Assembly (NCBI RefSeq): GCF_013240295.1
Contig: NZ_JABETK010000002.1
Location: forward strand, 930,001 to 994,000
Source of the DNA: Neoaquamicrobium sediminum
GTDB lineage: Bacteria; Pseudomonadota; Alphaproteobacteria; Rhizobiales; Rhizobiaceae
DNA: 64,000 nucleotides
Direction of reading: 5' to 3'
Part shown: piece by piece, positions 58,161-59,960 of the stretch
Position numbering within the stretch: position 1 is the first letter of the stretch
Layout: each line of letters starts with the position of its first letter
Notes under the pieces: model-generated
Told to the model about the DNA's origin: nothing
Databases searched by the model: none
Seen by the model: the letters and a program-made list of their open reading frames with translations, nothing else
Translations under genes and position numbers: made by a program

Positions 58161-58245
58161 TGGTGCGGTCGAGAAGACTCGAACTTCCACGGGTTGCCCC
58201 ACAGCGACCTCAACGCTGCGCGTCTACCAATTCCGCCACGACCGC
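58161..58245 (-). tRNA. tRNA-Leu (anticodon GAG)
   Basis: 85-nt class II tRNA with encoded CCA. On the minus strand, acceptor GCGGTCG pairs with CGACCGC, discriminator A; anticodon stem CAGCG/CGCTG encloses loop TTGAGGT, giving GAG; T-arm contains GTTCGAGTC. Divergent from lipB. Confidence 0.97.
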
Positions 58246-58419: not shown

Positions 58420-59157
58420 ATGATCGAACGAAACCGGATGCAAGCCTTGTTCCTGCCCACCCTCGACGGCCCGCCCGTCGAGTGGCGAATCGAGCCGGGC
58501 CTGACGGACGACGAGACGGCCCTTGCGGTGATGGACGAGCGCGCCGCAGCTATCCGGGAGGCTGGCGCACCGGAGCTCGTCTGGCTGGTCGAGCATCCCC
58601 CGCTTTACACCGGCGGCACCAGTGCCGATCCGAAGGATCTGCTCGACAAGAACCGCTTCCCCGTCTTTGCGACCGGCCGTGGTGGTGAATACACCTATCA
58701 CGGCCCAGGCCAACGGGTCGCCTATCTCATGCTCGACCTGAAACGCAGACGCGAGGACGTTCGCGCTTTTGTCGCGGCACTCGAAAGCTGGATCATCGGC
58801 TCCCTCGCACGCTTCAACGTGAAGGGAGAGCGGCGCGAAGATCGCGTCGGCGTGTGGGTCACGCGACCCGACCGCCCGCCCCTGCCCGACGGAAGCCCTG
58901 CCGAGGACAAGATCGCCGCCATTGGCATTCGCCTGCGCCGATGGGTCAGCCTGCACGGCATCGCCGTCAACGTCGAACCCGATCTGACGCATTTCGGCGG
59001 CATCGTCCCGTGCGGGATCGCGGGCTATGGTGTGACCAGCCTGGTCGACCTCGGCCTGCCGGTCACCATGGATGATTACGACGTTGCGCTGAAATCAGCC
59101 TTCGAAGAGGTTTTTGGCGCAACGGAAAATTCCCCGAGCCTCACATCGAGCCAATGA
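58420..59157 (+). CDS. lipB: Lipoyl(octanoyl) transferase
   Basis: Transfers octanoyl from ACP to lipoyl domains; LipA then adds sulfur. 245 residues. Substrate loop [40 protein letters not shown] with the conserved GGxxTYHGPGQ, catalytic Lys in [20 protein letters not shown], and the catalytic Cys in [18 protein letters not shown] 58420 ([13 protein letters not shown]) fits family length; the longer frame from 58297 runs from the tRNA flank. Its 3' end overlaps the minus-strand 28-aa ORF. Confidence 0.96.
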
Positions 59158-59227
59158 GCAGCGCCATGGCGGTGACGAAGGCGCTCATCGTGACGAGCGA
59201 AAGGACATCCTGAACGAACTCGGCCAT
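59141..59227 (-). CDS. 28-residue single-pass membrane protein
   Basis: ATG 59227 is preceded by AGGAGAG at ideal distance. The product ([20 protein letters not shown]...) is a short N-terminal amphipathic part plus one membrane helix ending LLIGSM. A sigma-70 promoter with a 17-base spacer lies upstream (59256-59284), overlapped by a near-match to the alphaproteobacterial LexA box. Size and topology recall Caulobacter SidA, a 29-residue SOS-induced division inhibitor; there is no sequence proof. It ends inside the 3' end of convergent lipB. Confidence 0.6.
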
Positions 59228-59255
59228 TTCTCTCTCCTGTATTCGTTGTGTATCC

Positions 59256-59284
59256 CTTATGTTTCCATTTTGTTCTCATGTCAA
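59256..59284 (-). promoter_or_regulatory. Sigma-70 promoter with LexA-like box before the 28-aa ORF
   Basis: On the minus strand, TTGACA (59284-59279), 17 bases, CATAAG (59261-59256). Between them is GAAC-N7-AAAC (plus strand GTTT-N7-GTTC, 59261-59275), one base from the alphaproteobacterial SOS box GAAC-N7-GAAC. Position between -35 and -10 would allow LexA repression. Confidence 0.5.
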
Positions 59285-59432: not shown

Positions 59433-59960
59433 TCAGACCTCGTTCAGTCCATTTCTGAAACGGCGCGCGTTGGCGACATAACTTTCCGCGGAAAGGCGCA
59501 GGCGCGCTGCCGCCTCGCCATCCAGCTCGCGCACGACCTTGGCAGGCGACCCGACGATCAGCGAATTGTCGGGAAAAACTTTGCCTTCGGTGATCAGCGC
59601 GCCGGCGCCGACCAGGCAGTTGCGCCCGATGCGCGCGCCGTTGAGTACGATCGCGCCCATGCCGACGAGGCTGTTGTCGCCGATCGTGCAGCCATGAAGG
59701 ATCGCCCGGTGACCGATCGTGCAGCCCTGCCCCACCGTAAGCGGAAAGCCCATATCGGTGTGCAGGACGCAATGTTCCTGAACGTTGGATCCGTCGCCGA
59801 TCTCGATCAGTTCGTTGTCGCCGCGCAGCACCGCGCCGAACCATATGCCCACGGCCCTGCCGAGCTTGACCTTGCCGATCAGCTTCGCATCCGGCGCGAT
59901 CCAGATTGTCGGTTCGTCATCGATCTGTGGTGCGTGGCCATCAAGCGCGTATACGGGCAT
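59433..59960 (-). CDS. Gamma-carbonic-anhydrase-like hexapeptide-repeat protein
   Basis: 175-residue left-handed beta-helix protein. Hexapeptide rungs run from [14 protein letters not shown] to [23 protein letters not shown]. Metal-binding histidines in QEHCVLHTD and [10 protein letters not shown] match the gamma class (three His shared between subunits). Relatives (YrdA, PaaY) include active and inactive members, so carbonic anhydrase activity is not certain. Confidence 0.92.

Follow-up and report, generated by a model that had tools for sequence, protein, structure and literature searches.

The 64,000-nt stretch of Neoaquamicrobium sediminum DNA that was analyzed here as a whole (the window; contig NZ_JABETK010000002.1, positions 930,001 to 994,000) carries a 28-codon open reading frame (ORF) that is probably a rhizobial member of the SidA family, i.e. 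a predicted LexA-repressed, single-helix micropeptide of the inner membrane with a putative role as a division inhibitor in the SOS response. SidA of Caulobacter is described as an inner-membrane protein of 29 residues; it binds FtsW and thereby prevents division, and mutations in ftsW and ftsI act as suppressors (PMC4211646). For the window peptide we infer the division-inhibitor role from its homology to SidA and from the same predicted control. An earlier note on this DNA had pointed to a ribosome-binding site (RBS), a promoter with 17-bp spacing, a GAAC-N7-AAAC element between the -35 and -10 hexamers and an ORF of 28 amino acids (aa). These elements and their coordinates are correct, and the observation is confirmed as a real feature of the locus, which is composed as follows:

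59141..59227, minus strand: 28-aa micropeptide ORF, predicted SidA-family homologue (ATG at 59227, TGA at 59143-59141)
59234..59238, minus strand: RBS AGGAG, with a similar RBS in the homologues
59256..59261, minus strand: -10-like hexamer CATAAG, weak (4/6 to TATAAT)
59261..59275, minus strand: LexA-type direct repeat GAACAAAATGGAAAC (GAAC-N7-AAAC), one mismatch to GAAC-N7-GAAC
59279..59284, minus strand: -35 hexamer TTGACA

The spacer between the two hexamers measures 17 bp, and the LexA-type repeat sits between them. The best 19-residue Kyte-Doolittle mean of the 28-aa product is 2.15, as compared to 2.08 for SidA, both values being the outcome of a hydropathy calculation only.

Control of the peptide gene by LexA is a prediction that is well supported by comparative genomics. 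Family members were selected by their protein alone, and the operator was counted in 100 of 102 fetched family loci, which had been selected from the listed matches and include family-profile matches down to E 0.008. L022 and L038, which are clipped at contig ends and were misplaced by the script, were left out of this count, as were L018 and L019 (E 0.28 and 0.40) and the duplicates L028, L029 and L033. The repeat GAAC-N7-GAAC is present upstream in exact form in 83 of the 100 loci and with at most one mismatch in 93, which supports the LexA/SOS control put forward in the earlier note. Other spacings of the GAAC repeat, from 2 to 14, were found in exact form in at most 5/100 loci within the 80 bp upstream of each member. 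Furthermore, TTGAC lies just upstream of the box in 57 of 88 box-bearing loci, and at an identical distance (9 nt) in 43 of these 57. With a weight matrix built without the genus of the window, the window site scores 25.2 bits (median of the source sites, 31.3), and no other site in the 64-kb window exceeds 8.1 bits, the runner-up reaching 8.06 bits. None of 60 simulated (Markov) windows attained the score of the window site. The lexA promoter of the same genome carries an exact GAAC-N7-GAAC, GAACACAACTGGAAC. Within the genus, both half-sites are intact in L004, L006, L007 and L008, the second half-site reads AAAC in the window, L001 and L005, and the first half-site is degenerate in L003. The degenerate half-site in part of the genus possibly results in weaker repression or earlier induction.

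The window ORF is, on comparative grounds, a conserved gene under purifying selection. Conservation of the ORF had been suggested as a test in the earlier note, together with a synonymous/nonsynonymous ratio that differs from one, and both were observed. With the 28 residues as the only query, the ORF was found in 7/7 other genomes of the genus that were searched (E<=6.6e-6), and 17/60 genomes, the own one among them, matched at E<=1. Within the family, a 16-sequence profile found a match in 178/199 genomes at E<=1 and in 103/199 at E<=1e-3 (own genome included in these counts); the weaker family matches, with E above 1e-3, need the promoter evidence for support. In the genome of the window, the only match to a family profile at E<=0.05 is the window ORF itself. 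The pN/pS ratio amounts to 0.165 (bootstrap 0.117-0.217) over 32 independent close pairs, a set that spans both lipB-side and dnaE-side members, and to 0.23 when pooled over the genus. Between the window ORF and that of its nearest sister there are 8 synonymous and 0 nonsynonymous changes.

A search of plasmids with a consensus-like member of the family gave no match, and a search of phages gave one match at E 2, which was taken as chance. Five family-like peptides (L068, L077, L080, L081 and L085; e.g. MRDLLQDIASLISAATFVFIFSLCIGALS) have no LexA box; in each case the peptide stands at position 1001 on its own strand. These loci were scored as misses in the operator count and excluded from the weight matrix. 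The neighbours of L068, L077, L080 and L081 match PHROGs families, with phage-type repressors in L080 and, weakly, in L068 (the neighbours of L085 were not scanned). Prophages may carry a SidA-like peptide of their own.

The gene neighbourhood supports the link to SidA independently of the peptide sequence. In C. vibrioides, sidA (which we take to be CC1927) ends 35 nt before the start of dnaE, and lolD is located past a divergent ORF; lolD is our label for an ABC ATPase gene that in S. meliloti follows the gene of a lipoprotein-releasing permease. In Caulobacter, dnaE is listed as CC1926 (PMC1839093) and sidA as CCNA_02004 (PMC11034885). The divergent ORF between lolD and sidA (C. vibrioides L322:1612-2712) appeared nucleoside hydrolase-like by eye. 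At the order level, lolD and/or dnaE were found at the peptide in 19/19 of the loci kept, and both in 12. Among 106 family loci, some of which are too short to reach the flanking genes, 25 have lolD and dnaE, 24 lolD only, 12 dnaE only and 14 lolD together with a convergent lipB; the remainder consists of 11 loci with lipB only, 5 with lipB and carbonic anhydrase, 1 with carbonic anhydrase only and 14 with none of these genes. At least one of the four genes thus accompanies the peptide in 92/106 loci. Conservation downstream of lipB, which the earlier note had suggested to check, holds for 30/106 family loci, and lolD and/or dnaE are the commoner neighbours (75/106, 14 of them also with lipB). 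The neighbouring genes in the window, which lie outside the proposed system, are:

58420..59157, plus strand: lipB, lipoyl(octanoyl) transferase, convergent to the peptide gene
59433..59960, minus strand: gamma-carbonic-anhydrase-like gene, upstream of the peptide and on the same strand, below the cut-off of the model

The 3' ends of the window ORF and lipB overlap by 17 bp. A tRNA-Leu (anticodon GAG) is encoded upstream of lipB at 58161-58245 on the minus strand. An Rfam scan of the window returned two tRNAs only; an antisense RNA that is not listed there would escape such a scan, and no further search for antisense RNAs was made.

In the genome of the window, the peptide (C2:989144-989227) and the dnaE match (C2:1056296-1056649) are about 67 kb apart, and the peptide is not found at lolD/dnaE. 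The approx. 3 kb upstream of this dnaE contain neither a lolD match nor an exact box. The lipB setting of the window can be read as the result of a rearrangement that would have led from lolD-peptide-dnaE via lolD-peptide-lipB to peptide-lipB, this direction being the one that we infer. In S. meliloti Ak57 (L493), the genes for proline-tRNA ligase, the lipoprotein-releasing permease and the ABC ATPase are followed by a gap and then by dnaE. This gap holds MADFVRDLAAFASMSLFIVSISVIALGL, a 28-aa member of the family at L493:3501-3587, behind two overlapping exact boxes; the PLSDB gene table, which is incomplete, lists no gene there. The Ak57 record (CP090106.1:1483270-1490353) is titled pSymB, yet it belongs to a molecule of 3.72 Mb with dnaE and proline-tRNA ligase and looks like a mislabelled chromosome.

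Furthermore, alphaproteobacterial genomes were surveyed starting from dnaE instead of the peptide. The DnaE N-terminus was searched against 190 genomes and matched 179, and the upstream regions of 130 of these were obtained. An exact GAAC-N7-GAAC within 450 nt of dnaE is present in 20 of these 130 regions and lacking in 110. In the last 400 nt before dnaE, the spacing of 7 occurs in 18/130 regions, as compared to 0-3 regions for any other spacing between 3 and 12. A hydrophobic ORF of 22-60 codons follows the box in 18/20 cases, as compared to 146/2182 (6.7%) at matched positions in box-less regions. Thus, the arrangement of a membrane peptide with an SOS box in front of dnaE is found repeatedly, in several families. 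Divergent box-preceded hydrophobic ORFs were seen before dnaE in L400, L416, L460, L470, L492, L367 and L425; these seven may represent further branches of the family.

The relation to SidA itself was followed outward from the family. Within the order, a 64-sequence family profile found matches at E<=0.05 in 54/249 genomes, a count that includes the family itself, and of the 19 order-level loci kept, 16 have the peptide behind an exact box and 3 behind a box with one mismatch. L109, L111-L113, L115-L117, L131 and L134 were considered spurious and removed from the order-level and family locus sets; the script found no start codon in L110 and L130, and 24 listed order-level places are outside the locus set. 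Across the class, profile A2 matched 11/385 genomes at E<=0.05, mostly junk, and profile A3 38/385 at E<=0.1, including many spurious matches. One class-level match led to another alphaproteobacterial family, in which the peptide was found in 37/40 genomes at E<=1. A phylum-wide search gave matches in 54/398 genomes at E<=0.05, with only 6 outside the class, all of them at E>=0.028. When 12 Caulobacteraceae genomes were searched with the broader profile A4, a 29-aa ORF was retrieved from C. vibrioides DSM 9893 (L322) at E 0.049, together with similar ORFs in 10 other genomes (best E 2.4e-7); Asticcacaulis, among these 12, gave no credible match. The DSM 9893 ORF matches the NCBIfam SidA model NF033228 at 2e-20 with all 29 residues covered, and 11/12 Caulobacteraceae members match this model at E<=0.01.

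A comparison of the rhizobial profile A2 (64 members) with the Caulobacteraceae profile A5 (12 members) by hhalign gave a probability of 94.2 and a score of 28.8 for a match of 20 columns, which comprises the N-terminal part only; the C-terminal ends differ. As a control, the order of the columns was randomized, separately for the N-terminal block and the helix block. None of 300 shuffles reached 26.3, the score from the shuffle script's own run (28.8 being that of a separate run), their mean being 8.3 and their maximum 17.2. With a family-only hidden Markov model (HMM), three other Caulobacter sequences outscored all 4000 block shuffles. An acidic residue is kept at position 7: it is D in 16/16 sequences of A1 and in at least 90% of A2, and the 12 Caulobacteraceae sequences have either D or E there. 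Taken together, the profile comparison, the lolD/dnaE neighbourhood in relatives and the promoter architecture make the window peptide look like a homologue of SidA, which goes beyond the functional analogue that the earlier note had envisaged.

Several observations weigh against this assignment. The peptide is short and hydrophobic, and sequence similarity alone is weak: even C. vibrioides SidA was retrieved only at E 0.049 with A4, it scores 7.7 bits with the family-only HMM, and 24/4000 block shuffles equal it. The class-level member L210 is equalled by 375/4000 block shuffles. A search of the window peptide against the curated model NF033228 (cut-off 35 bits) gave 0 families at E<=1; this model matched 0/64 rhizobial family members at E<=0.01 and exceeded its cut-off in 0/40 genomes (own and relatives). 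Moreover, the operator in the window carries one mismatched base. Because the curated model leaves the rhizobial branch outside, this branch is referred to here as a SidA-family homologue and not as a verified SidA. The sub-threshold matches of NF033228 in relatives look like noise: of 8 that were fetched, 3 lacked a start codon according to the script and 5 had neither a box nor an adjacent dnaE. Pfam and NCBIfam gave no hit over cut-off for the first eight peptides, with weak matches to YmiC, SpoIIIAC and ComGE only.

If the window peptide acts like SidA, DNA damage would cause RecA to trigger the cleavage of LexA, whereby the operator between the -35 and -10 hexamers would be freed. The peptide, whose leader is short and whose RBS is strong, would then be synthesized, would insert into the inner membrane and would block septation at the late divisome (FtsW/FtsI/FtsN), until repair restores LexA.

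Other explanations, which are not mutually exclusive, were weighed against this one. It is unlikely that the peptide depolarizes the membrane after SOS induction, dissipating the proton motive force and slowing growth with a target other than the divisome. TisB and DinQ of E. coli provide precedents, both being membrane peptides of comparable length with a single helix and under SOS control, and the hydropathy of the window peptide fits; however, the homology and the common neighbourhood with SidA argue against this explanation, as does the acidic residue 7 that is kept in rhizobial and Caulobacteraceae members. Quite unlikely is a LexA-controlled peptide that shares its descent with SidA and now acts on another target in the envelope. 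The restriction of the SidA alignment to the 20 N-terminal columns and the different C-terminal ends would agree with such a change, but a common role is the simpler guess in view of the kept core and the same control, and no observation hinted at a different target.

A role in the regulation of dnaE, as its leader peptide or as an upstream ORF (uORF), is very unlikely. It is suggested by the position of dnaE directly after the peptide in many genomes, and it has been raised for sORF25 of S. meliloti, which is placed in the 5'-untranslated region (5'-UTR) of dnaE1 in a study that considers 5'-UTR sORFs as possible uORFs (PMC10117765). For the lineage of the window, however, this role is contradicted: dnaE is far away and has neither lolD nor an exact box in front of it, the sole profile match of the genome is the window ORF, and the lipB-side peptide keeps its sequence and its operator with only the convergent lipB downstream. 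In addition, the pairs that revealed the selection on the peptide include members from both neighbourhoods. Finally, although any lone 28-aa ORF is weak evidence, a chance ORF behind a chance box is refuted by the conservation, the selection, the operator counts and the survey from dnaE and can practically be disregarded.

The assignment to the SidA family, which we prefer, suggests that a checkpoint of the SidA type is old and widespread in alphaproteobacteria. On balance, we lean towards the view that much of the Alphaproteobacteria inherited this SOS division checkpoint from a common ancestor, that its gene was first located between lolD and dnaE, that rhizobia have it, and that it was moved away from dnaE in the lineage of the window with its operator kept. 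If so, the clade would possess a broad equivalent of SulA, and the move with the operator kept would show that the peptide works independently. SidA would then represent a single branch within a far larger family, of which the curated model reached only the Caulobacteraceae members here. In the model organism S. meliloti, a LexA operator and a target can now be predicted for a specific small gene between a lolD-type gene and dnaE. An SOS-induced single-helix division inhibitor is of a known kind. A conserved SOS gene of fewer than 30 codons is easily overlooked, and a literature search that covered few subscription journals, and its sources in part, found no report of a rhizobial SidA, a rhizobial LexA-controlled micropeptide or a rhizobial SOS division inhibitor, nor of how broad such a rhizobial branch is or of its relocation.

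When compared to known systems, DinQ, as described, and TisB of E. coli are controlled by antisense RNA, and no link in sequence or neighbourhood connects either of them to the window peptide here. The same role that we propose, a delay of division after damage, is fulfilled by DidA, YneA, SosA and SulA, which differ in size and target and for which no sequence relation is claimed. DidA, like SidA, is described as a small transmembrane protein acting on FtsW/I/N (PMC4211646), YneA as targeting FtsW (PMC13396833) and SosA as a division inhibitor upon DNA damage (PMC6851548). The sORF25 of S. meliloti, in the 5'-UTR of dnaE1, is probably the orthologue that we see in Ak57 as the 28-aa member preceded by the lolD-type ATPase gene and followed by dnaE. 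In that study, sORF1-55 are counted as detected by ribosome profiling (Ribo-seq), and its main text places sORF25 among possible uORFs with no mention of LexA, SOS or DNA damage (PMC10117765). If sORF25 is indeed the orthologue, the translation of the S. meliloti member has already been reported. The closest counterpart is SidA of Caulobacter crescentus (CCNA_02004; NF033228). The window member differs from it in falling outside NF033228, in its C-terminal end and in its position beside lipB instead of dnaE, and its role is assigned by homology. In common, the two peptides (29 and 28 aa, respectively) have one hydrophobic helix each, a LexA-type GAAC-N7-GAAC upstream, an N-terminal core that can be aligned and, as seen in the rhizobial relatives, the lolD/dnaE neighbourhood.
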